Shown piece by piece: positions 15,307-63,860 of a stretch of DNA of 64,000 bases; the first letter of the stretch is position 1; each line of letters opens with the position of its first letter. Under the pieces are notes generated by a model. It made no database searches. It was not told the DNA's origin and was given only the letters and a program-made list of their open reading frames with translations. The stretch lies in NCBI GenBank assembly GCA_011316305.1, contig SAUG01000007.1, positions 1 to 64,000 on the forward strand. Reading direction: 5' to 3'. The stretch is from Rusavskia elegans (taxonomy: Eukaryota; Ascomycota; Lecanoromycetes; Teloschistales; Teloschistaceae). Made by a program: the position numbers and the translations under genes.

Positions 15307-15514
15307 GTTGAAGACGACGTGTATAGATAAGGTAATGCTGGTGATGGTGTCTTCATAATTTCGATGGATTGCAGTCTGGTCGCACTACGACCACCAGACG
15401 CTAACCACAAAGGGTTCAACGGCGAGGTCAACTGAAGGTCCTCATGCTGCCAGCCTGCCAGCGAGCCAGCCAGCAGCGAAGGATAACCATTCTCCCTATC
15501 ATCTCATGCCTTGG

Positions 15515-15580
15515 TAGGGCATCTGATTTGGCTTGCAGTCGAGGTATCGGATACCCACTCCTCATACCTCGACTGCCCAC
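15515..15580 (-). repeat. Introner-like fragment (possible)
   Basis: On the minus strand this contains TACCTCGACTGCAAGCCAAA, matching the internal block of the degenerate introner-like intron of the aldehyde dehydrogenase gene (TACCTCGACTGCCAGCCAAA on the minus strand at about 22804-22823). The neighbouring copy of ACCTCGACTGCC on the plus strand makes the site partly palindromic. It lies upstream of the GILT gene, possibly in its 5' leader. No intron boundaries can be assigned. Confidence 0.4.
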
Positions 15581-15960
15581 TCCTCCAAGTCGAAGTGATC
15601 GCTGAAGTGCCCAAACGATTCTGCTCACCGCGAGCCGTTGATGTACCAAAGCCGATAGAAGCTCGACATAGCACGCGAAGCCACCAGTCCTGCCGTTCTC
15701 CTGGCTTGCCTTGTATTACAATGTGCTTTGTGTACTATTCTCGTCCGGAATGCAGTCTAGACTCGGGTAAGTTATTAGCGGGTATGGCGTCAACGGCATC
15801 AGAAGATTTCCTCGATTGGTCATTGGACGAAACACGACAATACGACATCTCCATAGTCTCACGCCACTCGCTGCGGAATATATGATCATCTTGATGGCTT
15901 ATACCTTACTGCCCTTCGTATCATCGAACAGACGGCGGTCTAGCTATCAATTGAACTAGA

Positions 15961-25880: not shown

Positions 25881-26113
25881 TAATTTCTCAGAATAGATCT
25901 GGTTCGGTTTCCAAAGTTCCTTGACTCATAACCAGATCCTCTCTTGATGCATGGCTGGATGTCATATGGCTGTTCACAGCAGCAACTCCGAACCAATACC
26001 TTTGTTCTCCACCGCAATTCTCGCCCAGTCTACTCCCTGCACACACACGTATTACAATATTCATCCTTTAGCCCATATCATCTGCAACCTGATAACTTGT
26101 CTCTCAACAATTG

Positions 26114-27504: not shown

Positions 27505-30500
27505 CTAAGAGAAGAAGTATTGACTTTTTTCAATCCTCGAAACATCAAACTCGCCCTTTTCTGGCACGGGCGGGAAAATCAAGGGCCGCCATAGCCAGAC
27601 TTTTCTTCCCGGTGCGGCTCGCGCTGTTCGTTCCGTTTTCGACTGTTGTGAAGGAATAGGGGGTTGAGCTTCGTCTACCGTGGTTCTCTCTTCGATGGAG
27701 CTTTCATCTTCCACGCCCATACCGATGGTCTCGGTCGCATCCATACTTCCGATATTATCTTCGTCTCCAACGGAAATTTGCTCGTTGGCCTGAAGTTTAT
27801 TTACCCGTGCAGACGACGTACTTCCCAGAGCGACATCGTCAAGTTCATCTTCGACCGCAAGATCATCCTCGCCTGACGAGCTTTCGAAAATGGAGTTTGC
27901 TGTAACCATCGCTTGACCCTCTTCCCTTTCTTCCGGCTTTTCAGAAGCTAGGAGCTTCATTCGTCGCCGTTCCATCAGCAATTCTTGAATGTGGACCCCT
28001 TCCAGCTTCTTACCACGACGGTTGAGATTCGATTGGCCTTTTCGCCACTTCTTGATATTTTTACCAACACTGCTTTTATCTTTGACGGCGGTCATGTACA
28101 TGCAGCCCTTGTAGCGGATGGCGAATTCAGCTCCAAGACGTCCGATGATATCCTCGGAATGCATCTTAATGAAGGTATCGCGGAGGAGTCCGTTCATGGT
28201 ATCTACATCCGAAGCGTGTGTCCAAAAAGAGTCGTGTACCGCGGTAAAGGTGAGGCCTTTCTTCTCGCACTGCATAGCTGAGAGCAGCATGTGCGTGGCA
28301 TCGAGGGAGTGAATGAAATTGGGAGGGAAGGCCTGGAGCTGTTTACGCTTGTTGACCGGATCTGCGAGCGATGGGTTGTGGAGGGTGATTCTTTGAAGGC
28401 TGGTAGCGACGCTCTCCATCGTCTTTTGACGATACGGTTGCACGACGGGCATCTTCAGAGGTGAGGTCCAAATGACGCTCTGCTTGAAAGCAAGGAGCTT
28501 GTCTTTGCCGCCGGGCTCGGCCTTGCGTCTCAACGGTGTCTTTCGGAACTCATCCGGTTCGTCCAAGGTCCCTGCGATGGCTGCCTCGATATGCTCCATT
28601 TGTTCCGGAGTGATGGCAGTAGCAATCCTGCCTGCGCAGTCTCCAAGCCAATATTGTATATCGTGGGCGCCGTTGAACATGTTGGCCAGTGCCTTGAAAA
28701 TTTTCTTCGCAACATAAGCTCCTGCGGTTGAGTGATCGGGGAGATCGGGATAGATTTCCTTCAACTGTCTGATGACTTGTAATTTAGCTCCTGTGAAAGT
28801 GACTCCATATACGTTGGTCATGACAGTTTGTTTGACAACCTTTCTCGTGATTTTCCCATCCAAAAGTCGGGCGATTTCGTGACCCTGCATTGCTTCTTGT
28901 GCAATATCACCCTTGACTATCTCCGCCACACCGGTGTAGATATCTGATGGTCGGTCACCCGGTTCGAGATTAACTTGTCTGGCACCAATTGAGTCTCCTC
29001 CAAGAGCTGCATAATGCTGTAAGCCGTTGCAGGTTCCATCCTGATGGACGGCAAGCTTTGATACATAGCCTTGCGCATCTGGAGATTCGAGAGCGTTTCG
29101 GAGTTCTTTACAGGCGGCAAGACATTGCCATGGATCTTCGGCTTGAAGCCACCATCTTTTTCCCTTCAAGGGGTTACTGGCCGAATCGAAAATATCTCCA
29201 CGGTGGTCCTCAGCGAAGGCAAGACGTTCTTCGAAGCTCGCTTTGTCGTAGCCAAATACATTCGCAAGATGAATCTTGAGCCACGTCAGGCCATTCAAGC
29301 CCAGCGGCTTGCCGACGCCAAAGGTCAATAGACCACGGCACAAGTCGGCACCCATGTAGTTGAGAAAAGGTGACATTGGATACGCTCGGCCGCGAAAGTC
29401 AACGTTATGAGGGAAATAGAACGTCTCATTAAGATAGGCACGCGCTATTTCCAGCTGAAAGTTTTGATAGCACCGTTGGCTTTTGTATGCCATCTTCTCG
29501 TTTCCGATGCGTCTGACCTCATGGAGATACTTGGCGCGCGCACCTTTGTCGTCGACCACTGGTTCTGGGGGAAGTTCTAATTTAGGATTGTCGGGGGCGA
29601 TGGTGCCAATGGCCTCGCCGCTATTCCAGACTTCGAGCATGACCTCAAAGATCGGACCATTGATTTGCCACGGAGTTCTAGAAAGCACATCGAGTCCAGC
29701 AGAAACCTGATCCATATCGCCATTTTCGGTGGCTATCATGCAGTAGCGTCGGCTCTGTTCGTCACCTTGAGGGATGCGAACTATGGGTTCACTGCTCGTC
29801 AAGAAACCACCTTCTCGAAAGCCTGCCCAAGGTTTAGGTTCGACGACCATTGGAAGGTGTTTCTGAGACAATGAGGCTGCAATTGGCTCTGTTGTAAGCT
29901 TGTCGTACATCGAACTGTTCAGCGAGACCATGCCGACACGCCTACCCCATTGGTATAGAGATTGGTGTAGGAAAGCCGGCTGCATTTCTTCACGGGTGCT
30001 ACCATTCTCGGCGTGTTTGCGGAAGACTGGGACTTTTGCGTTATCTATCAGTTTGGAGAGCAAGACGGCACCGATACGCGCCTTCACCGGTTTGCTCCAC
30101 TGATAGTCTTGTAGAGCCTGCGCTGTTAACTTGGGGGAACCAGCCAATATACTGGCAACATCATGTCGTCGGTGACGCCGCGCCTTCAGTCGCTTGGTAA
30201 CCTCTTGTACACGTGGACCACGGACGAGGTCCCGCAAATAAGCCCGATCGAAGTGGACAGATTTCAGGAAACCTGCCATACTTTCGTCTTGTACTGCTTC
30301 TCCAATAGCCATCACAATCGAAGTGACTGTGTTTCCACGATCACCCGAGCGTGAGGTACTGAGGGATGTCATACAGGTAAGTATCGTGATAGCCGAAAGC
30401 TTCTTGGCATCCAGGTATTGCAGGAAGGGTCCGTAGTGGCACCGATCTTCGTCCACAGGCTTCTTCACAGCCTTCATTTCGGCCTCGTTCGCCAGCTTTA

Positions 30501-43965: not shown

Positions 43966-46900
43966 TCAGTCACGCACCAAGCGTGCACCACACCAAGCTA
44001 GACCAATGGTCAGTATAGAAAGATTGGATCTAAGTAGCATCCACTTGCCATAAGGATAGTTGCGCTGGAACCAGTTGACACTGCTCATCGTCAGCATATC
44101 ATCTCGTGGAATGTGATGTGTCATCCGTCCTCACAATGATTTCCTCCCGGCGATCCTCGGATGAGTCGCCCAAGAACCTCCAAGCACGCTGCTTGGCGTC
44201 AGCATATCATCTTTTGGATTGTCTTGTGTCGTCAATTGCCCTCACATGTTGTGTTTTCCATCAAAGAAGTCCGCAGTCTGCAGTAGATTTCGGAGTCAGC
44301 ATGCCTGTAATGGAAGTGTCTCGGGAGTTCGAATGTGATTAACCATAGTAAGTCTCACTGTGGCTTGGCAGGACATCCGATTGACGTGTCAATCGAGGTC
44401 TCGAATGCCCAGTATGCCAGAGATAGCTCCAGAGAGCCATGCGGGATTGGGGCAAAAGAGCTCCGAAAATTACTCACGTATCCAGGATACTGCTCCATGG
44501 CGGCGAATCCCTCATGTTCTTCCAGTGTCGAGCTTGTCCATTCCCACACACCTCCTAATTCACCCCGTCCACACAATTGGTTCCCAAGATGAGTAACGGG
44601 GGTCGGGTGGAAGTGGCGGAATCCCACGTTGATTGAATCATTTTCGAGGTCGACGAAAAGATCGCTGGGAGTCGGACGAGTGCTGACGCTAGAAGAACCA
44701 TTCACAGCAAGGGCTGAAGGGGGGCTCTCTTCCACCCCGTTGTTCGACAGATGACTTGAACATCTATATCAGCATGACGTTTCCCATCACAGCCAGAGGA
44801 ACGTACCCATTGACGGCGTCGATTTTTACAGTTTGCACCTTTTCCGCTTCCTTCTTCTTCGCTACATCGACGTGCTCGTAGATGCTTCGAACCTCCTCAG
44901 CGGTCGGAATCCGTCCATGCATGAATTTGGCGCACCCAGCTAGCTCATCATAAGAAGCAAAGACGGGCCAAGCGAGAGCATGCCGAAGCGCAACAGGTCC
45001 GTAGATCGTCTTGACGAATTTGCCATCCAGGAATGTCTGGTCAAACGACTCGCCGTAGCCATGAAGGTAGTGACTCCTGAGATTTCCGTTTGCAGTTTTG
45101 GCGTTGTCCAGTCTAGAGCTGGTCTGCTGGGTCCACGATGCTGGCAAAGTTTCTTGGTTCGTTCCGTAAAGGTAGCGGGCGAAGTCTTCGTTCGTGAGAG
45201 GTCGTGCTTTGGCTTCGAAGGCGGGCACATGCATATTCCGCATTGGTTTCTCGTTGTCCCATCCAAAGTAGCAGGCTGAATCGCTTTCATCTTCGGGATC
45301 ATCCATGCCTACAAGAATCGTGGTAGCAGGGATCTTGATCCACTCATTGTCAACAGCGGTCTGTTTGGCTTTCTGGCCTAGTGCCTCAAAGTTGGGTACT
45401 GGTCCTGGCGGCGGGAGTATCTTCTCACTCTGTAGAAAAATGTAGAGCAGTGTTTCTACGTGCATGGCTGTGTTGAAGTATAAGCCCACGTATACCTGAG
45501 AGTTAGGTTCTTTCACCTTCATGCTCGAACCCCAGCCATAAGGCTCGTCCTACACCTTCTCTGTTTGCTTCATCACGCTCGCTCAATAATTCGCCGACCC
45601 GAGCTCTCACCCTTGCTTGATAGTCAAGAATCTCTTTTACAGGTGGCCACGAATCAGGTATCTCGCTATGGTCGTGACAGAGTTCGGGATTATCCACGTC
45701 CCTTAGAAGCTTTGTAAGTAGGAATTGGAGTTTCAGGAGGATCCTGGCGCTTACGGATCTATTCCCCGTTCGAAAATGGTCTGATAATACTTGGGTTCGG
45801 TAGCCCCCTGCGCTGTCGCCCTGGTCAAATGTATGTCGAGAAAGGTTGGGATGTGGCCAAGATAGAAGATGCAACACTGGAGAAGTTTCAGAGTCAGCAT
45901 GTCTTCATCAAGCACCGGAGAACGTCTGAGTATGTCTTGTTAGTAGCTCTTCATTTAGCAATCTGGGCATCCGACACCTCGACTAGCAACATCCGATGTC
46001 TCGATCAGAAGTCCAATCCGATACGGTGGAGCCATGTCTTGCAAATCTAAGCCGAGGGGGCTTAGGGTATTGTGGCTCCAGAAATCACTCACATTGCGCA
46101 GTTGTATTGGTTTGTGAAGGAGCTCGTCCTCTGGGATCATAGAAATGATGGCATCCCATGCGGCCCACAACTGTTTGAAGTCTTGGAGATTCGGGACTGG
46201 TTCGGCCGCATATTCTTCTGCCCTGAGCGGAAACGCTAGAGTCGGCTTTGCCAGGACATAGAAGTCTACGGCCATTATCAGTCAGGCAGTGAAACTTTCG
46301 GGGAACCCAGTAGAAGCTAATGTGCAAAGGACATCTGGGGAAGTCGAAGCTGGGACGTTTTACAAAGAAGTGTAACGCAAACACCCACGGATGGTGATTC
46401 CTTGATAGTGCGATAAACGACAAATAACGATAGAATGGTTGGTATTGGAAGGCATAGAAGAGGTGACCTTACGATAATCATCGATCCAGTTGCCAAAGGA
46501 GGCTCGCGGCACCAACCCCGCTTTTCCCCAGAGCTTTCTGCTCTGTTCGGACGACCATTTATAGCTCTCCTCAACACGGATCTTTTCTCCATTTTCAACG
46601 TACACCCCATCGATCATCAGATCTTTAGTAGGGGAATAGAAGGCTTGATGGCGTCCGGCTGATTCGTCATACTCGCCAATGACTTTCCAGTCCTCGAGCC
46701 TGAAGACATCTTTGGCCAGGATCCGATTGGCATGCACGAGCCCGTTCAGGACAAACTCATGAGTCTTCCCATGGCTGTCATTGTATGCAGAATACACCTT
46801 GTGACTGTCTTGACAAGCATCCAGGCCAACGAGTATGCAGTCGTTGCTGCCCAACGTGTTGGCAAAGCCTTGGAGGAAAGTTGCAGCCTCCTCGCGGCCA

Positions 46901-47771
46901 AAATTCCCGACTGAGGAGCCAAGGGTTAGGATCCATTTGTGCCGCTGTTGCTTCTCTGGTCGTTTCAGCCATCTCAGGGCATCTTCGTACTGGAGTGGAT
47001 TTCGGGGTCAGCAGGTAACCTTGGAATGGGATAACAGAGTTCTGAGAAGTCTCCGGAGCTTAGAAATTTAAAACCGCGGTTATGCCTCTTGGATGAAGTC
47101 TCATATGCTGATTGGGAAAAGTATAGGCAATGACGACTCCGAAAAATGCCTTACCGTCCCAAGAAGCCCGTGGCATCGCACATACCGGTAATGCTCTGGG
47201 ACAGCTGAAAGAGTTCTTTCCAACTCCGGCTTTGAAAGATCCAACGCAAAGTAATGGACCCGTTTCCTGGCTAGCTCAAGAGCATCTAAAAGAATCTTCA
47301 CTTTACGTAAATTACTGCTGTATTATTAGTGCCATGGAGATCTTCGGGAACAGCTGTGGTAGCGGCCTCGAAAAGGGCACATTGTTGCTTGAAGAGGGTC
47401 AACTCGTACCCACTCCCAAGTTCGAGAACATCACAGTCGTCTGGCGCCAAGTCGGCGATCGCGGCAGCGTTATTCTCCAGAACCTCAATCTCCGCGTTTG
47501 TCAAATAGTACTCGTCAAGATATGTGATGTCTTCGAAAAGCTTGAGACCTTGTTCATCATACAGTAAGAGAGTCGGTAGCCTCTTCTCACCTCCATCCTG
47601 TGGACGGAGAGAGGTTCTGATCTCATCGAGAAGAGGAATTCCGGCTTGATCACGGCGAATGTCTTGGATATCTTGCGGCATTGTTGGGACAACAGGCGAA
47701 AGCTCTATCGGAAAAATCTGGGCAGATGGATGACCCGGCATTGATGTATATCTTGTGATTGACGAATCCAA
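43966..47771 (-). CDS. egt1: Ergothioneine biosynthesis protein 1 (EgtD-EgtB fusion)
   Basis: Twelve exons (47771-47410, 47314-47155, 46989-46473, 46265-46093, 45876-45755, 45701-45517, 45467-44807, 44754-44478, 44277-44246, 44188-44135, 44080-44049, 43997-43966) give exactly 868 residues. The N-terminal domain is a histidine N-methyltransferase (LLYDEQGLKLFEDITYLDEY, DVLELGSGNLRKVKILLDAL, ILTLGSSVGNF). The C-terminal half is a DinB/FGE-type sulfoxide synthase: FYLGHIPTFLDIHL (about residue 411) and FEHEAMHVETLL (about 505) supply the three-His iron site; GGVWEWTSSTLEEHEG, TADFFDGKHN, VLGGSWATHPRIAGRKSFVN and WFQRNYPYAWCGARLVRD close the fold. It converts histidine to hercynine (SAM) and then, with cysteine and O2, to hercynylcysteine sulfoxide. 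Introns 2, 4 and 8 are introners; introns 9 and 10 are near-duplicates; intron 11 is GC-AG. Confidence 0.95.
44278..44477 (-). mobile_element. Introner-like element 1 (egt1 intron 8)
   Basis: A 200-nt intron, phase 0, between QYPGY and TADFF. The donor end is GTGAGTAATTTTCGGAGCTC and the acceptor end ACTCCGAAATCTACTGCAG, preceded by CATGCTG. It carries the internal block GGGCATTCGAGACCTCGATT. This is one of the least decayed copies, together with those at 58031 and 51327. Confidence 0.93.
45877..46092 (-). mobile_element. Introner-like element 2 (egt1 intron 4)
   Basis: A 216-nt intron, phase 0, removed between LRN and CCIFYLGHIP. The donor is GTGAGTGATTTCTGGAGCC and the acceptor end is ACTCTGAAACTTCTCCAG preceded by CATGCTG. 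It contains the family's GATCGAGACATCGGATG block twice in altered form. More diverged than elements 1 and 3-8 at its ends, but the layout is the same. Confidence 0.88.
46990..47154 (-). mobile_element. Introner-like element 3 (egt1 intron 2)
   Basis: A 165-nt intron, phase 0, between CHGLLGT and YEDALRW. The donor end is GTAAGGCATTTTTCGGAGTC and the acceptor end ACCCCGAAATCCACTCCAG preceded by CCTGCTG. The middle no longer resembles the other copies, so only the termini are conserved. Confidence 0.88.
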
Positions 47772-48245
47772 AGCAGGTTTGATCTGACGTTTGGGTGGTC
47801 AAGGAGAAACGTAAGAGCCCGGCGACTTTTGCTCCCAACGACGATCACTAGTTGTGCCGGGTCGATCCATGTGTACCTGCCAAGGCAAGCCTTGCCATAC
47901 GTTGACTAATCCAGACGGGAGTCTCCACTATGGCGTGATGGGAAAGCATGTTCTGCTGATCCGGGCTGAGAGGTTCATCCAAACAGAAGTCGAGATGATG
48001 ACGCTGTAAGAATCTAGCGGGAGGAGAAGGGTCCGAGGCCCCATCATTGGATCACAATGATCATTGCTGTGCATGTCTAGGGCCCACTGATTCCTAATCA
48101 TCAAGTTTCGCGGGGATTACTGTCACTGGAGTGTATACCCGAGGAGAAAAGAATACAAGTAGAATGAGGAAAAGTTGCCCCTGCGATATCCCTTAGCGCG
48201 CCAAGAAACCCTGGATGTCAAAGCAACCCTTTAGCCGGGTTCTGA

Positions 48246-48300
48246 TATCGAGGTACCGACTGTTGTACGCCCGTTGCTGCGATTGTAAGACAACAATAAT
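48246..48300 (+). repeat. Dispersed repeat, copy A (partial)
   Basis: ATCGAGGTACCGACTGTTGT followed by ACGCCC at about 48248-48273 matches the core of the repeat copies at 7.5 kb (-), 52.2 kb (+) and 59.2 kb (-). Similarity fades within about 30 bp on the 5' side and continues weakly 3' (TTGCTGCGATTGT). It ends about 50 bp before an F-box-like scrap. Confidence 0.55.
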
Positions 48301-48350
48301 ACTCCCACATCAAATTTCTTACAAGCTCGCTGTTCAATACGCACACAGCA

Positions 48351-48533
48351 ATGGATAGACTACCGCGAGAATTGTCATCGCACATTCCTTCGTTCCTAGA
48401 CCGTCATGATGACCTACCAGACATCTTGCTGCAGAAGAAGCGCGTGTCTAAGGATCACCAATTAAGAATTCTGCCGCCCTTGGTTGAGTTAAGAGAGAGG
48501 TGGCAAGGTGACTGGGCCTTATCCGAAAGCTGA
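48351..48533 (+). pseudogene. F-box N-terminal fragment
   Basis: The 60-residue frame starts MDRLPRELSSHIPSFLDRHD, which fits an F-box first helix, and contains RVSKDHQ, similar to the usual (L)RLVSKDF that follows. It then degenerates and stops. F-box proteins are normally several hundred residues, so this is at most an exon or, more likely, a truncated relic. It lies between egt1 and a Pir gene, close to a dispersed repeat. Confidence 0.4.
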
Positions 48534-48811
48534 AGCTTGAGAATAACAGGTGGATCTGAAGACAGAGCGATTGCCGCAACATCGTCGATGATATTCAAGT
48601 GAGAATTGAGTATAGGACGCCGCTTGATACACGGATATCATGTCAAGTACAACGATTGTAATTCTCGAACGATCTAAGTATACGACCAAAAGCCAAGATC
48701 TAGCAACATAACTTTTCGACTACCCAATTGGTCATCTGTTCATAAGCATCAATGCTATCCCTCTCCGGTGCAACGCAAAGAATGCAAAATTGTCAATATC
48801 CAACCCGATCC

Positions 48812-49731
48812 TCAGGAGCAACTCTGCAGCTGAAGGAGATTGATGGTGATTGGCGAGCACTGCGGCGCCCACGATCTATCATAAAGATTATAGAATTCAC
48901 CGCTGAGGCACTGATAGAAAACATTCGAGCCACCGAGGGCCAGCGTACCGTTACCGCAAGCGGAGAAGCCAGTGGTGTATATGGCACCACTTTGGGGCGG
49001 GGCGTCGAACTGGAACTGGAAGTTGGAAGCAATGTAGCCTGTACGTCCCTGAGCGTCCTTGAGGACGCCATCAGCTAGGGTGATGGCGAGAGTGCCTTCG
49101 CTTTCGCAAGCCACCATGGTGATGCCACTGTCTGTTGAGGATTGAGGGGGGTCGGATGAGGCAGGTCGCTGTAGGATGGAAGGAGCCGAGGGAGAGGGGG
49201 GAGACGCGGCAGTGGAGGGCGCTTGTGGTTGAGCATCACCAATTTGGGATACTGGGACCATGGTGGCTGTGGATGTGGGTGTGGGGAGAAGGGGAGCCTG
49301 AGGTTGACCGTCTGAGATGACGGTGACGGGAGCGTAGGTTGTTGTCTGAGCCTGGATTTGTCCATCCCCGATTTGGGCAGCCATGAACATCATGGTATGG
49401 ATCCCAGCTTGAGGCTGCCCATCGCTCATAGTAATGGGCGCCATGGTCTTGACTTCGGGTTGGCCGCTGTGGTCCTGATCAGCAAGTAGCCTCTATGGAT
49501 GAATTTGGAATGGATAACGTACTCGCTTAGCTGTGCAACCTGTCTCTTCATCTGAACGGCCGTATTGCTCACATTTTGCACAGCAATACCGTAGGTCCCC
49601 GACGCGGAAGGTGTGCAGCCTGGAGGAGGAGAAGCTGAAGGCGAGATTGCCTCGGTCACGGCTTGGGGCATTGCAAAGGGGTTGGCATGAACGGTGACCG
49701 CAATGGCGAGAAGAAGATAAGAGTATAGCAT
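48812..49731 (-). CDS. Classical Pir cell-wall protein (four-Cys C-terminus)
   Basis: Exons 49731-49523 and 49466-48812 (56-nt intron) give 287 residues. The signal peptide is MLYSYLLLAIAVTVHANPF, followed by a Kex2-type KR site (VQMKRQVAQLSDGQ). The splice creates the first Pir repeat (QLSDGQPE); further repeats read TMSDGQPQAG, QIGDGQIQAQ, VISDGQPQAP and QIGDAQPQAP. The C-terminal domain has the Pir four-Cys pattern: ACESEGTLAITLADGVLKDA, then TTGFSACGNGTLALGGSNVF, YQCLSGEFYNLYDR and APQCSPITINLL. Pir proteins are linked covalently to beta-1,3-glucan through repeat Gln residues and through the Cys domain; they support wall strength. The choice of the later acceptor (at 49467) is supported because it alone continues the repeat frame. 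Confidence 0.92.
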
Positions 49732-50951
49732 CGTGAAGACAGAGAGATTTTGAGACGGGATATCCGCAGTAGGATACAGAAGTAACAATGAGCGAAAAGA
49801 TGCTGCTTCGAGAACGAACGGTAGAGAACGTGGTGATGAAGAAGGAGAGGACTCTTGATTATGTCTATGGGAAGTAGATACAGACGAATGATCCGAGCTA
49901 TTATACTATTGCAGGCAGCGGGGCATCCCGTCTCTGGTGTTTGGAAGCATCCGTATTGGGAGAGGAGAGTACTATGATGGAACGGTAGAATGTGGACAAT
50001 ACCTTGGGTTTTGCATCCCGAATATCACGTACCATACAAACAGAAGAGGGTCCACCTTGAGCCTGTGCTTGATGCTACATCTTCAAACATCACATGCTGT
50101 CTTTCAGTGTAGTGGTCGACGCAAGTGCTTGGGAAACAGTGGACTTCGGCCCAGGAGTTTGGCCGTCAGATCTCAATGTGGCTGGATGGTCCTGCAAACA
50201 TCCAGTCCAGAAAACCGTGGTACAGATTGATGTGGTGATGTATTTCTCAAGCTTCGAGGGAAAAGACTCTTCGACTGGTATGGAGACATCGAAAGTATGG
50301 CTCCTGTCAAAATGACGCGGCCACCCACTCACCAGCGATGGCGTGGTTACGTAAGCGGCATGACGCCGTGCGTGTCCAATTGACCATTATATTCCTACAC
50401 CCGCACTATGCATATAGGCTTTCTGGACGATTTATCCATCGAGCCGCGCCGCCAACTGCCCTTTGATGCATAAGTATGATCTCTTTTGTGTTGTCAGCAG
50501 CAGCATCTTCTCAAGCTCGCTGTAAGGTTCCACGTCTCTCTGGACCCAAACCCGAGAGAACCGTCATGTATAGCCTGGGCGTTCTTGCACATTCCCAGTC
50601 ACCGCAAATGTCGTCCGATTGAGATGTTACTACCCGGCAATATCGACCATCTTGAAGCATGGAAATAGAACGCAACGGCTGGGCTACCCGTCTTCATATC
50701 TGGCCAATGCGGATACCACAGCGGCTATACAACCTTCTTGTCAGCCTGACCCATTTTAAGGTCAGCTACACTCAACGCTCGGATGTATCTTGCCTGGCCG
50801 CTGGCCGCTACTCAATGGGTGTAAAAACTCTTCTATCTTCATTTTTCGACATTGACTCACCTTTCCTCCACTCCCCACAAGCTTGCCTTGAGAGGAGAAT
50901 CGGATAGAGAAAAAACAGGGGACAATACATGTTATGATATCCCTCCATCGT

Positions 50952-51653
50952 ATGACCACTCTGTTTGCAATCGCTGTCACTGCACTTACACAGAGAACAC
51001 AGCCGCCGCCGCTCTTGCTTTACTCCTTCTCCTCCTCGCCAACTTCATGGTCCCAACAACAGCCGCCAGGGACGCCGTATGCTGGACGCAGAAGACTCCA
51101 ACCAGCGAGAAGCCCATTCCTACCGTTTTTAAAGCATGTCATGACGCGATCAAAATCATGTTCCCCGACCCCGCGTCAGGCCAAAAACCGATCCTGTTCA
51201 GCCGGAAGGAGAATCACGGTTATCAAGTTCCCGAACAGTGGCGGAGGGGCAACTGTGTCATCAAGATTGACATGCATGATGACGATGCAGAGGATACCTT
51301 GACGTTCCTCGATCTCGCCACCGCAGGTAAGGCAATTTTCGGAGCTCTTATTACCCAACGGATCCCAATTTAGCATTCAACATATAATCCTAAGGCTCGA
51401 GCGTAGTTCCCAAATCCTTTAAGCTCCGAGGATATTTTCTTAGAACTCTATAACATCTCCTCAAGCAGACATGCTGACTCCGGAATCTGCTATAGCTGGC
51501 ATCGTCAACATTGTCTGTGTAGCTAGACCGCCGCATTTTGGGGGGAGCGTGGCCGTTGGGGCCAATCAGGTCATGAATGTTAGTGTGTTTGGATGGCCCT
51601 TGCAGAAATCGTTTCTGAATCTAGGCCTGGATATTTCCACGGCGAAGGAATGA
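50952..51653 (+). CDS. Small secreted protein, N-terminus unresolved
   Basis: The conserved-looking part is two exons joined across an introner (51327-51495): DAVCWTQKTPTSEKP, FKACHDAIKIMFP, FSRKENHGYQVPEQWRRGNC, VIKIDMHDDDAEDTLTFLDL, ATAAGIVNIVCVARPPHFGG and SVAVGANQVMNVSVFGW. The Cys spacing and the GNC-x-I-x-I-DM pattern are typical of small secreted fungal proteins of unknown role. A hydrophobic segment (AAAALALLLLLLANFMV) before it would be the signal peptide, but this frame has no nearby ATG. The only good ATG (50952, MTTLFAIAVTAL) is one base out of register and no plausible intron connects them. Either a one-base indel or a missed 5' exon is needed. Function is unknown. Confidence 0.6.
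51327..51495 (+). mobile_element. Introner-like element 4 (secreted-protein gene)
   Basis: A 169-nt intron, phase 1. The donor end is GTAAGGCAATTTTCGGAGCT and the acceptor end ACTCCGGAATCTGCTATAG, preceded by CATGCTG. It is in the sense of its host. The acceptor is TATAG instead of the family's TGCAG. Confidence 0.9.
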
Positions 51654-52109
51654 CTGGAGCTTGGTTGCGACGCCCTATCATCATCCCTACCGATTCCAAA
51701 CGTCAATCAGCAGGTGCTTGCACGAGGGCTCGTCGTATTAAGATTGATCGCATTCCTAAATACAAAACAATCTAGTTTTCGATATAGGAATTCGGGCCAA
51801 CGATGACCTGAACATCTACCTATAGCGTCTGCGAGCGCATATTGAACTGAGCAACGCCCATAATGACGACACGAAATGGTACCGGGTGCTTACGAGTAGT
51901 GACCTGCTCGGTGGTGGTTGTGCTGCCCATATCACGACTGTATCTTAACACAACGAAGGGAAGGAATTGCTTTGCTCTTGGTGATCAGAAAACACTATCG
52001 TGGGATACATGGTGGTGTCTATATAACAACCATCAAAGGTCTTGCTGAAGTGGTTGTACGTTCAAATCACAAGCTACCGTCAGGTCTCGCCTTTCGATCA
52101 GGCTCAATC

Positions 52110-52310
52110 ACCTTCCGATTTGTAATCGTAACGTGGGCCACACAACAACCGCCTCACCAGTCACTAAAGGCCGAGTTCCATTCCACGTCATTTGTACGGT
52201 CGATATAGCTGTACAGTGACAGCCAAGCGATCGTTTGAACGGAATACTACATCGGGGTATCGACTGCTGTACGCCCCCAGTGCGAATGATTTTTCAAATA
52301 ACGAGCACCC
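52110..52310 (+). repeat. Dispersed repeat, copy B
   Basis: Aligns over about 150-190 bp with the minus-strand copies at 7.5 kb and 59.2 kb: a GTGGGCCACACAACAACC block, TCACTAAAGGCC, TAGCTGTACA, GATCGTTTGAACG, then the core ATCGGGGTATCGACTGCTGT and ACGCCC, and the tail GCGAATGATTTTTCAAATAA. No intact reading frame is present. Nothing else of note was seen in 51654-52560. Confidence 0.65.
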
Positions 52311-52567
52311 CATGACCAGGTAGATAGACTCTCGTGATGGGCAGTGAAAAAGGAACCTACAATCCGAAGCACGCACTACATGGAGCCAGGCCCCCTACCG
52401 TTCGCATTCCCACACAACAGGGAAAAATGGCCATTGGCACGCCTACACAAGAAGAATATGGTTACGTATCACCCTTTTGGTTTTGATCTATGACCGCTTC
52501 AGCTCTTGATTGATCAGACCCCCATGTGGCTGTACATCGCAGACCTCTGCCCCTTTTCTTTTGAGAT

Positions 52568-52650
52568 TGCGAGGGGGCCAGGAATCGAACCCAGAACCAG
52601 ATGCAAGACACTCGTACATGATACGAAATGCCTTCAATCTGGCCATCATA
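52568..52650 (-). other. tRNA-like sequence with Pol III B box (pseudo-tRNA or SINE head?)
   Basis: On the minus strand the sequence has a perfect B box (GGTTCGATTCC), an A-box-like D arm (GGCCAGATTGAAGGC), and a possible anticodon hairpin (TTCGT-ATCATGT-ACGAG, anticodon CAT). A G-rich 5' end faces CCCCC after the T arm. A 7-bp acceptor stem cannot be formed without mismatches and the variable region is long for a CAT anticodon. I regard it as a degenerate tRNA or tRNA-derived repeat, not a working tRNA gene. Confidence 0.35.
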
Positions 52651-52671
52651 CCCCCCAAAAAAGGGACACTA

Positions 52672-53107
52672 ACGCCGGAGCGAAAAGTCTCAAGTGCAGA
52701 CGAGAAGCCGGAGCAACAAGTTTCAAACACGTGCCAGACAAGACGCCGGAGCGACTAAGTCTCAATAGATTACAGACTTGACGCCGGAGCTGCAGACGTC
52801 GCAGGAGCGGGAAGTCTTTTGAGCAACCTACCACTTGCAGAAGCTTGGATCACATATCTGAAGAAGAAAAAGAGTGATCAACCTCACTTTGCCCTCTTGT
52901 GTGAACAGCTCGGCTACCTTAAGCGCGTTAAACAAGCGCCGAACACTGATATTCATTTGATTCTACCTTCTTCTTTCTTCTCTTCAGTGCTTAGCATAGG
53001 AACTTGCAGCAGCAGATTCACTACTCTAGCTCTCTGAGACTTTTCGCTCCGGCGCCTCGTCTGTCGGTTCGTTTGAGACGTGTTGTCCTGGCACACGTCT
53101 GTCATGG
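52672..53107. repeat. Minisatellite array with inverted copies
   Basis: Four forward units of 34-38 bp start with (A)CGCCGGAGC at 52672, about 52706, 52743 and 52781, each followed by AAGT(C/T)TCAA-like sequence. The same units recur inverted at about 53033-53107 (GAGACTTTTCGCTCCGGCGC on the plus strand). Between them lies about 240 bp of single-copy DNA. The right arm reaches the ATG of the next gene at 53104. Confidence 0.8.
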
Positions 53108-54618
53108 CCTCAAAGGAAAAGACAATGGCTCCGGCAAAACTCGCCCAGACTCAGAAGCCGTCGGACAGTCAATGGAAGACGAAGACAGCGCAGAGGCGCG
53201 GCCGTCTGCAATACCGTGCAATGCCGAATGGTCAGTGGTTTTCGGCGCTTCTTTACCCAATCCTACCTGACTTTGAAACCACCCCTGGCAAGCTGGGCAT
53301 CCAAGACCTCGATTGACAGACAGTTGTATTGAAGGCATGCTGAGTCCTAAATCTACTGCAGATCCATGGCAGTCTTTGGAGTCGAGCTATGAGGTGGAGA
53401 ATATCGAGGGGACACACCCCGAGCCACCCAATGTACAGGAGATCATCCTGTCAAAAGAAAGTATTGTTGTCCAGCAATACAACCTCAAGTTCGATCGAGC
53501 AGCCGCCAAAGAGCTCGAGGTTCCATTTCTGGGCTGGGAACTTGAGTTTCCAGTAAAGGCGATGAAGGAGATCGTCTGTGAGGAACGTACCGTTCCAGGC
53601 CGAGCGAGCCCCGGATGATGCAAAACGTACAATCAGTAAGTAGTTTTCGGAGCTCCTCAATCTCATTTGTACTCCCGATAATGCTGACTCCAAATTCTAC
53701 TGCAGATAGCATACGTTTCCAACTCGTCGAGCGGCCAAAAGGCAAGGACAATAGCAGATTTCCGGAACTCACTGATGATGCCGGTGCCACTATAGAGGCG
53801 GACGGCAAAGCCGAGCAGTTCCCACTAGCGAAGCTTGACTTGCAGCCAGAAATGGAAATCCGGCTCGCCTTTGAAGGTTTGATTGCGCATCAACCCAAGA
53901 AGGTCTACAGCTGGATCTGGCCTATGATTGTTCACCTTCTAGCCGGCCGGGGATACAACGTCAAAGACAAGGACCAGAACAAAGCGGCTCTGAATGTAAG
54001 CAGTTTTCGAATCTACTTTACCCCAATACCACTCGACTTTGGAGCTATCCCCAGCAAGCTAGGTCTCCAGGACGGCGACTGACACCAGTCGATGTCTCGG
54101 AGTCAATTGCGAGCTATGGGACGAGACACACTCTGTTGGTCCAATGTCAAGCATGCTGACTCCGATATCTACTGCAGACTTGGGCCGAAGCGAACCCAGA
54201 CCGACTCGAGAAGATCACATCCCTTGAAGGGGTTGAATGGCGCCTGCGTACGAAGTCGTAAGTATTTAAATCCTTCCACAGATTACAGACTGATAACTTG
54301 CCTAGGCTTCCCAAGGCGCAGCCAGGCCCTCACAATGTTCCAGAGCCTCGTCGACCTGCAAAGAGGTCGCTAGATGTCGAGTTCGAGCGGCCAGAGAAGC
54401 GGGAATGCAAGACCCTGTGGGAGAAGAGAGCTGAGTCGGACCGTCTCCTACATGGGTTCGAAAGGATCCAGGCGCAAAGAGTAGCGGCCGAGATTGAACT
54501 CCGTGCCTTGCAGTCCAAGGTTTCTAAGCTGAGGAATACCGAGCAGGTTTGGAGCGATACATATCTCCAATCTATAAGGGACCGCGACGATGCTGAAGAG
54601 AAGGAGCGGAAAGGTTAA
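53104..54618 (+). CDS. Orphan protein with three introner introns
   Basis: Exons 53104-53230, 53362-53552, 53599-53635, 53706-53995, 54178-54257 and 54306-54618 give 345 residues, exactly in frame. The N-terminus is Lys/Gln-rich (MASKEKTMAPAKLAQTQKPS). The middle is predicted folded: VVQQYNLKFDRAAAKELEVP, DDAKRTINSIRFQLVERPKG, LDLQPEMEIRLAFEGLIAHQ and KKVYSWIWPMIVHLLAGRGY, then WAEANPDRLEKITSLEGVEW. The C-terminus is a charged coiled coil (QAQRVAAEIELRALQSKVSK) with a KR-rich stretch before it. I recognise no domain. Introns 1, 3 and 4 are introners; introns 2 (46 nt) and 5 (48 nt) are ordinary. Intron 2 is inferred from the frame: without it a stop occurs at once. Upstream is the inverted minisatellite. 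Confidence 0.7.
53231..53361 (+). mobile_element. Introner-like element 5
   Basis: A 131-nt intron, phase 1. The donor end is GTCAGTGGTTTTCGGCGCTT and the acceptor end AGTCCTAAATCTACTGCAG, preceded by CATGCTG. The internal block GGCAAGCTGGGCATCCAAGA and CCTCGATTGACAG match element 1 and the SET-gene copy. Confidence 0.92.
53636..53705 (+). mobile_element. Introner-like element 6 (internally deleted)
   Basis: Only 70 nt long, phase 1. Both termini are kept: GTAAGTAGTTTTCGGAGCTC at the donor and ACTCCAAATTCTACTGCAG at the acceptor, preceded by ATGCTG. The internal block shared by the longer copies is absent, apart from a TGTACTCCCGA motif. Confidence 0.92.
53996..54177 (+). mobile_element. Introner-like element 7
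   Basis: A 182-nt intron, phase 0. The donor end is GTAAGCAGTTTTCGAATCTA and the acceptor end ACTCCGATATCTACTGCAG, preceded by CATGCTG. The middle keeps TTTGGAGCTATCCC, AGCAAGCTAGG and a CGATGTCTCGG motif. Confidence 0.92.
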
Positions 54619-57405
54619 TGGGTCACGGAGCATAGAGGAAACTTTTCGCCTTAATCAGCGACGATGCTGCGAGTGAGGTCTCCAAGTTATAGCGACTGCA
54701 GGAACACTTACAAAGAAAGCAAGACTGGAAGCTCCATTACGTAAGGAGTTAGATCTCAATGATACGTCAAAGACTGCTGAAGATCGTTGACTCACGTTCC
54801 ATGCGTGTCGGACGTGTTCAAATGCAATGTCCTACTATCTCATACACATCTCTTTGTATGACCCCACCAGTTCGTTAAGTGGAAAATCAATCTACTGCAC
54901 CAATACGCATTGGTTGCCAATATATTCTCCCCCTGCTATTGTAGACGTAGTGCGAAGATCTCCGATCAATGGGTGTCGTTTGGTCGGACATGTATAAGCA
55001 TCATTCGTGAATTTTTGATAACGCAACTCGATCTCCAGAATCTAAACATCCATGTCTACGTTAAAGTGAGCCATATTCAAATGGAATGCAAATACACGTC
55101 TTTACACTCACTCACCCAGGTCTTTAATAATTTTGACCATGAGAAAAAGAGCATGTTAGCAGTAACTTTGAGTCAGAAGGGCTTTCTGATAGGTAACAAG
55201 TTGAATTCCTCGATGATGAATGGCAGGAAGGAGTTCTTCATCTTCAAAGTACGGTGGCCAGAGTATATCTCCTAATTATTACCCATGTATAGCCTTCAAA
55301 TAGCTTCCCAGATGATTCGACCGAGGTCATTTGTTTCCACCTTGTCGATTACCCATCGGGCTACCCCCACGCTTGCTCTGTAGTTCTGCCGACAACTTCT
55401 GCAGACATCGAATGCAGGCTTGTAAGAGAACTGATTCGGCCGTGGTTTTCATCGGCCTGTGTTGGGCAACATCTTCCAGAGGCCACAGTTCGCAGTCGGT
55501 CAGAGCTCTTTCGTGGCATCTGGTGTCTCAGATTGCACTTGCACTTGCACTTTGCTTTGAGAAGCTTGTCGTTTGGGTTATAGAGATCGCGGTAGTTGAC
55601 GAAACGGAGCCATCTTTTGTCTGCAACCAACTGCTCTACAATAATCAGACTAATTGCAACTGAGAATAGGGGTTTAGTGTGGACTTACGGATGATACGGC
55701 GGGGAAGATGAAGGCCTCGATGTCTAGTCGGGTTGACGTTCTATGATATGACCAGCACAAAAATAAGCGACGACTTCGGTGGTCCTCTTGAAGCTTCCGA
55801 AGTCATTGAAGATCCGGCAGGGGTACAGAAGGGATCTTGCGTCCAGAGACTCTCAGAAGGTCACTATCTTCGGCAATGCCAATGCTTGGCGTTTGGAATA
55901 GAGACCCGTGAAAATCGCCTATGTCGATCATTGTCGTCTATTGATTGTCCTGGACTTAAGAGCAACTTCTCGTCCATTCTATCTACCCACCGAACGTGTC
56001 GTCTCATCTAGGTTTGCGCGATTCGATTCGAGGTCGCTTAAATTTTTAGCTTTTGCAAAAGGTATTCGAAAACGAAGAGTCTTGGCAAATCCTTCTCTAC
56101 GACACGGGAACTTTAGGTATGGAGATGAGATCAGTATTCCATGTCAATTCGAATGTCACAAATGCCGACCATTTGTTTCAAGGCTAGATTACGGTGCGAG
56201 TGAAATATCAACCATCTTCTCAACCGGCTGCCTTGGTCGAGTCACGCCCTGGAGATAGCTATCGTGCCGATGAAATGAGACGCTCGATGCTGGTCTGGAC
56301 TTTGGATGGTACATCTCAATGGCTCAAACCCAGATAGCTGCTGGAGCTCAAGACTACATGCCCAGCAGCCAAGGTTACATCGACGTGTGATAGTAGGTAA
56401 CTTCTATGGTATGTGCATGCGTCCGCCCTAGACAGAACAGTCTCATTTGAAAAAAGAGGAAAGATACCTGTCTCTTCACCCTTTGTCAGAGTTCCCTTTC
56501 CACACACGCCCTGATTGTCTTCACTGCTGGTTATCCTCCTATGATAAGTTGAGTCTTATCGATGCCCGCCATGAGCCCCGCGATTGCTTTAACAACATGG
56601 AAGAGACTTCGGAGATTCGAATCACTGGGGGCGGATAGTTATGACGGGTGGCGGATAGTTATGCCTGGACCAACCGAAGCCCCATGCAAGAGTCTTTTGG
56701 TCCAACACTGCACCTGTGAGGTTGACTCAAAGGCGACTTGTGGGGTTGCTCCGGAAGCCGATCCTGGAGTTTTGGATCGGTGAGACTGCCTTGGGAGACA
56801 AGTCTTTGAAGCTATGGATTAGCAATGCCCAGAAACACTATCAAGATTTGAGCTGGGCCAGACGTTGATGACCATTGAGCTGCTCTTTAAAGGGATTTAT
56901 AATATTCAAAAGATATCAGAGGTATTTTGACTTTGGGTTTGGTAAGCGCTCGTTGTGGCATTCACTTCACGGGTCGGCCTACATGACGTCTCTCCGTTGC
57001 AGTCAAGACCAATTGCGATGTAGGCCACACGCCAGCTATAAGTCAAAGAATGATTAAGGTACTCGTTACCACCAGAGCCTGTTGTACCCTTTATTACGAT
57101 TGACTGTTGATTCCGCAAGCTCCTGAATCAAATGTCCTAACGTAAACGATGACAGAGGCCATGTTTCTTTCCAGTGAAGGGGGACCTCGGCTGACGTATC
57201 TTGATCATCAGATCTGACGTGGGAAGGGGTGATGATCTTGGTTTCGGTATAATCAACAGAGAAGCTTCGGCTCACTGTTGAGCAATGCGTTATGATCCTC
57301 GTCGTTGCTATCCGGGAAGACTCTACGCTCTTACTTCCTGATCTTTACTGTTGCGTTCACTCTTCTTGTCTTTCAAATTACATCCTCACCACTACAACGA
57401 CAACA
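54619..57405. other. Gene-poor stretch of 2.8 kb
   Basis: No gene is supported. Frames such as 55331-55663 (+) and 55361-55630 (-) overlap in opposite strands and lack domains or splice structure; the minus frame (KRWLRFVNYRDLYNPNDKLL) has a slightly protein-like composition and may be a relic. A CGGATAGTTATG direct repeat occurs at about 56632-56660. Confidence 0.45.
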
Positions 57406-58748
57406 ATGGACGTTAAGAAAGCTGCAGACAGCACAGTTGACGAAACTGAACTCTCCAAGGATCTTCAGGATCTGACATTCGACGATTCCCACAGCGCGAC
57501 ACAGACGGCAAATGGCAAGAAGCGGAAGACCCATCGTGGTGGGCACAAGAAGAAACAGAAGAATGGTCAAAAGTCGAGCAAAGAAGCAATACAAGGCTCC
57601 GAAGGAGATGCTTCTGTACAGCTGTATGAAGTGAGGGCAACAGCGAGCAAAGGTCTGGGTGTCTTTGCAACGTGTGCCATTCCACGCGGGATTCGGATCA
57701 TGTGTGAGCCCGCGTTACTTTACATCAAACACGCCAACCTACAGTTCATACATGTTCTTTTCTACAAACTCTCCCCAGGGGATCAAGCAAAATTCCTATC
57801 GCTTCATGCCCACTTCCCAAAAGGCGAAAAGGCCGCAATGGAAAAGGCCCTTCGTGCTTTCAAAGCAGCAGACCCGATCTTGTTTGCTCCACCGATCGAA
57901 GATCAGCTCAGAATCCGGGCCGTCGTTGAATCAAACGGTTGCAAAACAAACAGCGGTGTCGCTGTTCCATATGATCTAGGCCGTATCAACCACTCGTGCC
58001 TACCTAATGCCTGTCATGCCTGGAACAACGGTAAGTATTTTTCGGAGCTCCTGGACCCCAATCGCGCTTTACTTTAGAGCTACCACTGGCAAGCAGGGCT
58101 TTTGATACCTCGATTGACACATCAGCTGGATGCGTTGCTATCAGTTTTATCTGTACTCCCGAGACAGCTGCATTGTAGGTATGCTGACTCTGAAATCTAC
58201 TGCAGTGATCGAGTGGGCGACAGTACACGCGGTACAAGATATAGCGGCTGGACAAGAGCTCCTTACAACATACATCAGAGCCTACGAGCCTCGAGCACAG
58301 CGTCAGTCTTACCTCTTACAACGATGGGGCTTCCGATGTGATTGCCAGGCGTGCAACCCGTCATCAACGTTCGGTAAAGCTAGTGATAGGAGGCGGAAGC
58401 GTCTCTTGGAAATCAGCGAATTTCTGAAGTCACACAATCATCTATCATCCACAAGAGCCAGGGCCAGTAACAGGAAAGCTTTAGCTGCTGCAACCAAGTA
58501 TTTGAATCTGCTTCAGGAAGAAGGAATACACAACATGGAGCTGGCCATTGCGTAAGCTGATCTAACAATTCTTCGACGGAAATCAGCAAGGCTGACAGCG
58601 AAGTAGTTACGGAGACGTTGCAAATATCAACGTGAATATGGGTAATCTGAAAGCGGCTAGCGAATGGGAAGAAAAAGCAATGGAAGTAGCTGCTGCTTGT
58701 GCTGGAACCGATTACGAGACCTATCTCGAGTCACAAGTGACAATGTGA
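57406..58748 (+). CDS. SET-domain protein (SMYD-like class)
   Basis: Exons 57406-58030, 58206-58551 and 58607-58748 give 370 residues. A basic N-terminal tract (GKKRKTHRGGHKKKQKNGQK) suggests nuclear localisation. The SET domain begins LYEVRATASKGLGVFATCAI with PRGIRIMCEPALL; the catalytic core is LGRINHSCLPNACHAWNN (the NHSC motif) continued across the introner by VIEWATVHAVQDIAAGQELL and TTYI (the terminal catalytic Tyr). A post-SET Cys cluster follows (RCDCQACNPSS), then a helical TPR-like end (LAAATKYLNLLQEEGIHNME, NMGNLKAASEWEEKAMEV). The target protein is unknown. The acceptor at 58606 was chosen because it alone keeps the frame after GC|TTACGG. Confidence 0.9.
58031..58205 (+). mobile_element. 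Introner-like element 8 (SET gene intron 1)
   Basis: A 175-nt intron, phase 1, inside the catalytic core. The donor end is GTAAGTATTTTTCGGAGCTC and the acceptor end ACTCTGAAATCTACTGCAG preceded by TATGCTG. The middle has GGCAAGCAGGGC and TACCTCGATTGACACATCAG. Among the best-preserved copies. Confidence 0.95.
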
Positions 58749-62078: not shown

Positions 62079-63860
62079 TTAGGGCGACACGGAGGAGATA
62101 TTGAGGTAATCACCGTAGAGCGCACTTTTCGTCTGAATTTGCAAGCTAGCGGGTTTGAGGGAATTTCCCATATGCTGCACTGATACGGGGAATTCCCCTA
62201 GTAGTCTTTGAATGGGAAAAGAGCCAGACCCCGAATGAGGAGGGTATGTGGGAAGTACAGCAGAGGCTGCGTAGCGATCTTCCTGTGACTGACGAGACGT
62301 CGTGAAAAATGCTGGGGTGAAAGCATCTGCACTCTGGGCTTCCCAGACACAATGTGTTGTCTGTATTGGCTGGTGCAAAATATACGACACCATCATCTGG
62401 TTCAAAAGCTCCTCGTATCGCTGTAAAGATAGTGGACATCATTGACTTCTGACATAATGCCAAGGTACCAGACTACCCGTTGACGGATCCTTATTCCTCC
62501 GCGGCGTTTGTTCGACTCAAGTCTCAATCGAGGTATTAATCACCCAACTTGCCAGGCAACGATGTATATCTCCGAGAAGGACTGGGCGAATGATCCAAGG
62601 TGTCCGCAGATATAGAATTGAGCCTCAATGCCATAGATATAACATGACACTAAGTCCGATGCGATACGCTGGCAGGGTATTTGATCTGTACGACCGTCAA
62701 AGTATCCAGTGCCCAATCCACCAACGCATGTGATAGATATAATATAACCAGATCATGTCAAGAATCATAACCACGATTTCCGTAGGTAGAGAAGATCCAG
62801 CCGGTCCTGATCTGATACATAGTGAGTACAAGTGTGGCGGAATTAGAAGGTATCTACAAGGGGCTCATCGTACCAGAGCATTAGACATTTCAACACATCG
62901 CGTCCAGCCACTCTTAGACTATCCAAATATATTCTTCTCTGCGCCTCGAGTTCGCTTTCTCTTCTGTCCCATATTTTGCCGCCAATTTGAAGACGTGTTG
63001 TAGCGTCGACTCGGAGCTCTAATGTCGTGTAATCCAGACAACCGTCGAGCAAGCGTGCCATGGAATATGCCGCTGAGTATTGTAGTAAAAGCTCGTTTGA
63101 GGGTTTCCTGAAGCTGGCCTCGAGAGAGATGCTGCTCGCCCTGGGATGTCATGTTGTCCGTTGCTATCAGGAAAAACTAGAAAGATGTAACGGTTGCAAG
63201 AAATCTTCGTCATTCGTGTAGCTATCCTTTACTTAAGGCTGAGCAAGGGGGTCGTACGACGCCGTACGACGTTGGCATTGGTTACACATACTTGAGCAGG
63301 TTTACCGACGCGAATAAAGTACTCGGGTGTTGAGGAGTAGGAAAGCTTCAATTGAGCAAAGTGCATACCACCCACCATAATCCCGGAAATCTTCTCATCC
63401 CCAGACTCACACATGATCCATACTCATGAACGGATTTAATTGATGACTGGCTGAGTATGTTTCACACATATCCGACTGCATCTCATCCGCAAAAATCTCC
63501 AAAGCTGCTGTGTTCTCAATCCAATCCATCCAAGATTCACTACATGATGCATCTAGGTTCGGACTGTGACGATGATAAAGAAACCCACCTTAGAACCTGA
63601 ATCTCAGTTATCTCCAGGCCATTGGTCAATGAAGGAACGGTACAACTATGAAGGCATCGTTGTCTCGGGTTTCCGTTGTTTTGCCTTCTTGATCCGACAT
63701 TCTGAACCCATTTTCTTCCGGGAAATTGGCAATAAAGCTGTAGAATCCCGTAGCATTCGTATGGAAATAGAGCGAATCTCCGCTAATCGTAATGAGGGGC
63801 GCACAACATCCGGACCTCGATCTTGAATTTCGTTCCATCAATTGCTCAAATATCACTGTA
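62079..63860 (-). CDS. Probable multi-exon gene of unknown function (model unresolved)
   Basis: Several minus-strand blocks have coding-like composition in consistent order: CCAPLITISGDSLYFHTNAT and GFYSFIANFPEENGF (about 63800-63690), ISGIMVGGMHFAQLKLSYSS followed by TPEYFIRVGKPAQ (63390-63290, followed by a GTATGT donor), ASFRKPSNELLLQYSAAYSM and RLLDGCLDYTTLELRVDATT with WDRRESELEAQRRIYLDSLR (63120-62860), AQFYICGHLGSFAQS (about 62625-62580), and QRYEELLNQMMVSYILHQPI, QTTHCVWEAQSADAF to LNISSVSP stop (62427-62079). Exon borders between blocks are not all fixed, and I do not recognise a domain. An introner-like fragment lies before the last block. It could be a real gene or a decaying one. 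Confidence 0.4.
62428..62590 (-). repeat. Decayed introner-like sequence
   Basis: On the minus strand: TTCTCGGAG near the putative donor (about 62584-62576), then CCTGGCAAGTTGGG and TAATACCTCGATTGAGACTT, matching the SET-gene introner (CTGGCAAGCAGGG, TACCTCGATTGACA). The end CTATCTTTACAG is a possible acceptor at about 62428, directly before a coding-like block. Confidence 0.5.

Follow-up and report, generated by a model that had tools for sequence, protein, structure and literature searches.

Probable introner-like elements: a family of related introns in many unrelated genes of the lichen fungus Rusavskia elegans

We analysed a 64,000-nucleotide (nt) stretch of the Rusavskia elegans genome, positions 1 to 64,000 of contig SAUG01000007.1 in assembly GCA_011316305.1 (hereafter the window), in which eight introns of four genes are clustered within 14 kb. 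With copies elsewhere in the genome they form a family that very probably consists of introner-like elements (ILEs), residing in a lichen fungus of the Teloschistaceae (Lecanoromycetes). Its introns are about 200 nt long, fall into at least two subfamilies and are hosted by many unrelated genes. An earlier sequence-only reading of the window had proposed introner-like elements, and this was borne out by related introns in many unrelated genes, placed exactly and in sense, without target-site duplication. Taken as a whole, the observation made in that reading was partly confirmed and its interpretation partly supported.

The coordinates and strands first given for the eight introns proved right: each starts with GT and ends with AG, and all eight lie in the sense of the host gene. 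They are listed here with their junction residues (^, position of the intron), with matches to a sequence model of the family (R1, based on 34 copies, of which three are window copies) and with the homologues in which the flanking residues are adjacent (continuity).

44278..44477, minus strand: 200-nt intron of subfamily 1 in egt1, EQYPGY^TADFFDGKHN (continuity in 8 of 11 homologues; best other copy 89%)
45877..46092, minus strand: divergent 216-nt intron in egt1, KPIQLRN^CCIFYLGHIP (R1, E 3.3e-10; continuity in 10 of 11)
46990..47154, minus strand: 165-nt intron in egt1, nearest to subfamily 2, GLLGT^YEDALRWL (continuity in 10 of 11)
51327..51495, plus strand: 169-nt intron of subfamily 2; the host gene encodes a small protein, probably secreted (phase 1, frame open through the junction)
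53231..53361, plus strand: shortened 131-nt intron in an orphan gene, MPN^DPWQ (R1; junction adjacent in homologues)
53636..53705, plus strand: 70-nt remnant with both ends in the orphan gene, IN^SIRFQL (compared by eye with P0121, P0123 and P0125)
53996..54177, plus strand: 182-nt intron in the orphan gene, ALN^TWAEA (R1; adjacent in P0121)
58031..58205, plus strand: 175-nt intron within a SET domain, HAWNN^VIEWATVHAV (R1; Pfam SET alignment spans the junction)

Model R1 detected seven of the eight copies, one of which, 53636-53705, was matched only in two weak pieces (E 0.005 and 0.011). Its scan of the window did not detect 46990-47154, whose acceptor has one mismatch to the relaxed genome pattern described below and whose closest relatives lie in subfamily 2 (0.74 identity). 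The claim that all eight introns share the same two ends holds for the consensus, but the motifs are not common to every copy: with up to three mismatches, the donor motif was present in three of the eight (chance expectation 0.00) and the acceptor motif in six (0.01). When the eight were aligned, most proved similar beyond the ends, 46990-47154 and 51327-51495 being of another type and 53636-53705 a 70-nt remnant. The other 50 kb had been said to hold no copies as clear, in agreement with the R1 scan, which found outside the cluster only 15449-15558 and two weak fragments.

The scan of the whole genome that the sequence-only reading had suggested, run with end patterns, recovered the family well above controls. 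A relaxed 24-mer of the acceptor had 140 matches in the genome, 100 of which were listed, against nine with the reversed pattern; an acceptor 25-mer with up to three mismatches had 66 against none, and a donor 20-mer 73 against 18. As a genome query, 44278-44477 gave 40 scored matches. Among the genomic loci collected, both ends were present in 62 elements. Dropping one odd row of 322 nt (L043) left 61, seven of them window copies, and removal of three with short flanks, including the egt1 copy at 44278, left 58 spliced readings for a Pfam scan, each in the best-scoring of its three phases. By hand count, a Pfam match in the sense direction with an E value of at most 0.001 was present in 33 of these 58, of which 28 passed the cut-off set by Pfam itself, and in 21 a domain spanned the junction (17 above the cut-off). 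The host domains are diverse, with transporters, aminotransferase, carboxylesterase, ketosynthase, helicase, kinase-like, SET and other domains among them, and the occurrence of similar introns in many copies in unrelated genes is what characterizes introner-like elements. No match to the acceptor pattern was found in viral contigs, and a search for translated retained copies in the proteins of other species gave no candidate, although it required three shared words and was therefore uninformative.

Seven of the eight window junctions are supported by homologues or by a domain alignment. Among the matches listed (120 of 1044), those closest to the spliced Egt1 reading come from Teloschistaceae (Xanthoria calcicola 81%, Rusavskia elegans 84%, then Squamulea and others). 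In egt1, 10 of 11 homologues have the flanking residues side by side at each of the junctions 46990 and 45877, and eight of 11 at 44278, where P0021 has no such region and P0008 and P0002 diverge. P0002 is an R. elegans protein, 88% identical over the alignment to the spliced Egt1 reading, and its gene model departs from that frame at each of the three introner sites and close to the first ordinary intron, which makes up much of the difference between the two. The R. elegans behind P0002 thus appears to have introns at the three egt1 sites as well. Public gene models of Teloschistaceae lichens may be wrong, as in P0002, wherever such introns sit.

In the SET gene, the Pfam alignment of the domain crosses the junction of 58031-58205. 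The gene that hosts 51327-51495 is open across the junction for 219 codons from stop to stop, and its product had no Pfam match in the domain scan; 51327-51495 has five related copies elsewhere in the genome, at 75-80% identity. The orphan gene had 12 protein matches, and going by the eight that are named, all from Teloschistaceae, it seems to be restricted to that family. Each of its three introner junctions unites residues that adjoin one another in homologues, P0121 being the clearest case; for 53636 the comparison was made by eye, since the query protein used another donor. One exon of this gene is disturbed:

53362..53635, plus strand: orphan-gene exon, read from the ATG at 53104, with a frameshift of about 4 nt by comparison with P0121 and a TGA at 53616-53618

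Counted by hand against P0121, a Calogaya homologue, about 4 nt are missing from the exon upstream of the intron. The sequence-only reading had argued that the exon totals of egt1, the orphan gene and the SET gene divide exactly by three once the introns are removed. In-frame splicing is upheld for the three egt1 junctions by homologues and for the SET gene by its domain, but the in-frame TGA and the frameshift defeat the argument for the orphan gene. Perhaps this gene is in decay; alternatively, splicing may start from a donor further upstream, at 53578 (GTGAGG), which is apparently the choice made in the gene model of P0126 from Xanthocarpia lactea. A Dothideomycete setting, with which the sequence-only reading had associated the elements, was not borne out: the best Egt1 matches are from Teloschistaceae, a family of Lecanoromycetes, as are all eight named orphan-gene matches of the 12, and a Dothideomycete host was rejected on these grounds.

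The mode of insertion is likewise that of introner-like elements, the introns being placed exactly and in sense without extra exon bases. Scoring of the coding signal around the 62 elements favoured the sense strand in 40, the antisense strand in two and neither in 20, and the phases to the left and right of the intron agreed in 42 of the 62, where one third would be expected by chance. In a second scoring, applied to the 61 elements, a score of at least 5 was reached by 21 in sense and seven in antisense, as compared with 4.9% of random excisions. All three intron phases occur (19, 25 and 17 elements). Eight of the 61 introns follow an AG, and in 29 the exon before the intron ends in G. No target-site duplication was visible in the 61 elements, the sole departure being one 5-base match (0.03 expected).

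By sequence, the elements carry the full set of splicing signals (donor, branch point and acceptor) expected of introner-like elements. The ends of the consensus are inverted repeats, short and imperfect, in which 13 of 14 bases are alike when aligned by eye. In the predicted consensus fold, GTA.GTAG.TTTTCGGA pairs with TCCGAAA.CTAC.TGC (z -3.06, with none of 200 shuffles as good). The predicted stable fold or symmetry that marks introner-like elements is thus present in the consensus; folds of single copies are weaker, the median z over 56 copies being -1.38 for the sense and -1.71 for the antisense strand. Counted over copies and stem pairs, the pairing is formed in 81% of cells. The 3′ arm occupies the space between branch point and acceptor. 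The distance from the branch-point A to the last intron base is 18 nt in 59 of the 60 copies with a recognisable CTRAC (61 examined), and 10 nt in two short ordinary introns of egt1. In 44278-44477 the two arms, placed by position from the consensus fold, are as follows.

44461..44473, minus strand: 5′ arm of the near-terminal inverted repeat, element positions 5-17
44283..44294, minus strand: 3′ arm of this repeat, lying between branch point and acceptor

We compared the family with known systems. Introner-like elements have been described in the Dothideomycetes Fulvia fulva, Dothistroma septosporum and Zymoseptoria tritici (PMC4457414). Like these, the Rusavskia introns are spliceosomal, multi-copy and located in unrelated genes, form families within one species, decay towards ordinary introns and in some genes are present more than once; unlike them, they reside in Lecanoromycetes, and they are more diverged than active ILEs, the comparison being one of features (PMC4457414). 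The [D1,2] stwintrons of Xylariales also have a near-terminal inverted repeat with the 3′ arm between branch point and acceptor, at a spacing of 14 or 19 nt as against 18 nt here, and are also seamless, in sense and without target-site duplication (PMC12403724, PMC8469720). They differ in sequence and in being nested twins, the Rusavskia elements appearing as single introns, although no search for internal introns was made, and the complementarity of the stwintrons is an RNA feature with G-U pairs, whereas in Rusavskia neither strand folds better (PMC12403724, PMC8469720). Introners that are DNA transposons resemble the present family in forming whole-intron families that create introns and in being enriched in genes; many carry target-site duplications (PMC9860276). 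Of their hallmarks, terminal inverted repeats were found in Rusavskia and target-site duplications, among the 61 elements, were not; the lack of duplications and the sense-gene bias set the family apart from them (PMC9860276). As described in the main text of a eukaryote-wide survey, ascomycete families have neither terminal inverted repeats nor target-site duplications (PMC9860276), whereas the Rusavskia family has short inverted ends and, like them, no duplications. That main text names neither lichens nor Lecanoromycetes, a statement that does not extend to the supplement, and among the titles that our literature search returned, none dealt with introners in lichens or Lecanoromycetes.

The sequence-only reading had suggested local or recent activity. 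Recency was not borne out: among 58 full-length sequences the identity to the nearest relative had a median of 0.81 and a maximum of 0.947, the all-pair median was 0.725, and no pair reached 0.95, so that the near-identical copies that would mark recent spread were not found. Given that older ILE families of lower identity are described (PMC4457414), low identity weakens the case for recency and not that for kinship. As for locality, the evidence is in favour of an insertion hotspot but does not support local copying. Seven of the 140 relaxed matches lie in the 14-kb cluster, where 0.04 would be expected at genome density. Outside the window, a second copy was present in seven of 51 unique 3-kb loci, each pair on the same strand, and in none of 40 reversed control loci. 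The corresponding expectation is 0.45 at the density of the pattern, which is too low because the alignment-based count of neighbours is more sensitive than the pattern; it is 1.36 at three times (p 0.0005) and 2.27 at five times (p 0.009) that density. Neighbours counted by the acceptor alone show a modest excess outside the window, with 10 of 95 within 5 kb (uniform mean 2.1, maximum of 500 simulations 10). Between 44 and 60 kb, neither GC content nor skew is out of the ordinary.

Local duplication, considered as the source of the cluster, is unsupported, since the best relative of each window copy lies outside the window. The margin for 46990 is 0.74 outside against 0.73 inside, and the 70-nt copy 53636 has no comparable partner in the window; most of the copies compared lie outside the window, so that an outside best match is also the chance expectation. 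More telling is that the similarity between neighbours does not exceed the all-pair median. Six of the seven neighbour pairs elsewhere are at 0.67-0.75, below each member's match to a copy elsewhere, and the seventh (L003) aligns over 29 nt only. Since neighbours are not close relatives, it would seem that shared loci have been hit repeatedly by different lineages of the family.

A query restricted to the core of the element and excluding its ends yielded 40 scored copies from 83 candidates, five of which (L003, L045, L082, L095 and L096) have lost one or both splice sites. Projection of the consensus ends through insertions and deletions is unreliable, and these five were kept of 25 rows marked as not intact after the sequences themselves had been read; a rank test on the projected classification (p 0.07) was not used as evidence. 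Usable sites are present at both ends in 33 of the other 35 copies, the remaining two being seen at one end only; among the 33, L078 and L098 have a shortened 5′ end and L039 and L061 a shifted acceptor. The five broken copies have sense coding scores of -1.9 to 1.7, compared with a median of 3.9 where both ends of the element are present and 1.24 at random places. That genes retain the splice sites, whereas they are lost where no coding signal is seen, indicates indirectly that the sites are in use. L082 is situated some 60 nt beyond the stop of an open frame, and its outermost bases are preserved except for point changes; the product of that frame is presumably a glutathione transferase, which it resembles. 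L095 (196-383, minus strand) and L096 (203-397, minus strand) are about 84% identical in the core, and their outermost 5-8 bases are unrecognisable at both ends, with matches to the consensus at four of 15 and two of 11 outermost bases, respectively. Both sites are likely non-coding, judged on about 200 nt of flank each, that of L096 containing open antisense frames. Near 1416 and 1597 on the minus strand of L003 are neighbouring copies of different subfamilies, both with lost splice sites.

We consider it probable that introner-like spliceosomal introns have multiplied in this Teloschistaceae fungus by way of excised RNA or a transcription-linked step; that RNA or transcription is the route of spread we favour with less assurance. 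An intron family of about 200 nt, with at least two subfamilies, would have multiplied into many unrelated genes, each insertion placing a complete sense intron, with donor, branch point and acceptor, into an exon and adding no exon bases. Spread would proceed via the excised intron RNA or another step linked to transcription, and the near-terminal stem might hold the two ends together before insertion. Once inserted, the copies would drift, with conservation largely limited to the splicing signals, and would end up resembling ordinary introns.

Splicing of the copies is inferred from the continuity of the encoded proteins, and the copies are probably gains rather than old introns. Several points weigh against the favoured explanation. 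Twenty of the 62 elements have no coding signal on either strand, and identity to the nearest relative, at about 81%, is lower than the 98-99% at which copies of active ILEs of Zymoseptoria and Fulvia are alike (PMC4457414). Within the copies, the stem shows no covariation beyond permutation (p 0.25), and folding is as good on the antisense as on the sense strand, from which it follows that the stem is no RNA-specific feature. The same two observations leave selection on it within resident copies unsupported, and we read the stem as a probable property of the spreading element that is not maintained once copies are resident. Finally, inverted ends would suit a DNA transposon too.

A possible, though not a likely, account is that DNA breaks closed by end joining take in intron RNA or its cDNA, with complete copies persisting as introns in exons and trimmed ones only outside coding sequence. 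The seamless and weakly selective insertion sites (AG before eight of 61 introns, a final exon G in 29), the repeated use of shared loci and the lost outermost bases of the non-coding L095 and L096 all agree with it, as does the near-terminal stem shared with the Xylariales stwintrons, for which break repair has been proposed (PMC12403724, PMC8469720). However, trimmed copies were seen in two cases only, the non-coding L082 keeps its outermost bases, and the sense bias would need a further reason; the account also overlaps with spread by excised RNA or transcription. More speculatively, distant ascomycete classes may share the 3′-arm architecture through a common, RNA-hairpin-dependent mode of intron gain across Pezizomycotina, with copies here joined repeatedly into break-prone or transcription-stressed loci and trimmed ones surviving only outside coding sequence.

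We regard as unlikely that the family is a non-autonomous DNA transposon resembling a miniature inverted-repeat transposable element, with terminal inverted repeats and both splice sites, moved by a transposase as in algal and other introners. The inverted ends, their equal symmetry on both strands, the presence of some copies in non-coding DNA and the retention of the repeat core in L095 and L096, where the outermost bases match at four of 15 and two of 11 positions, would all be accommodated, but the absence of target-site duplications and the sense-gene bias would not, and local hopping is contradicted by neighbours that are not close relatives. Likeness due only to common splice signals or to duplicate host genes is almost certainly not the explanation: donor, branch point and acceptor are partly common to all introns of this fungus (TGCTGAC is present in two ordinary egt1 introns), but homology spans the whole 200 nt, the host domains are diverse and the reversed patterns gave 0 and 9 matches.

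The mode of spliceosomal intron gain is unsettled, and ascomycete introners look least like products of DNA transposition. The family described here has a clear end structure and sits in a fungal class for which the literature search found no introner report, which makes R. elegans a useful new setting for studying how genes gain introns. Two natural tests are at hand: copies outside coding sequence serve as a control for the upkeep of splice sites, and the extreme insertion hotspot lends itself to comparison among related lichens, many of which are represented by genome-derived proteins.

Beyond the cluster, the window contains one further likely copy:

15435..15629, minus strand: likely degenerate family copy, ends placed by eye (R1 match 15449-15558, E 4.7e-07; 0.70 to the nearest copy)

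Two weak R1 fragments at 62505-62568 and 62639-62723 on the minus strand (E about 0.001) are perhaps one very old copy. In egt1, the intron at 46266-46472 on the minus strand is long for the gene (207 nt) and has no match to the family model; it is possibly a family copy that has drifted past recognition. At 24001-28000 the GC skew is strong (-0.27), which sets this segment apart from the rest of the window.

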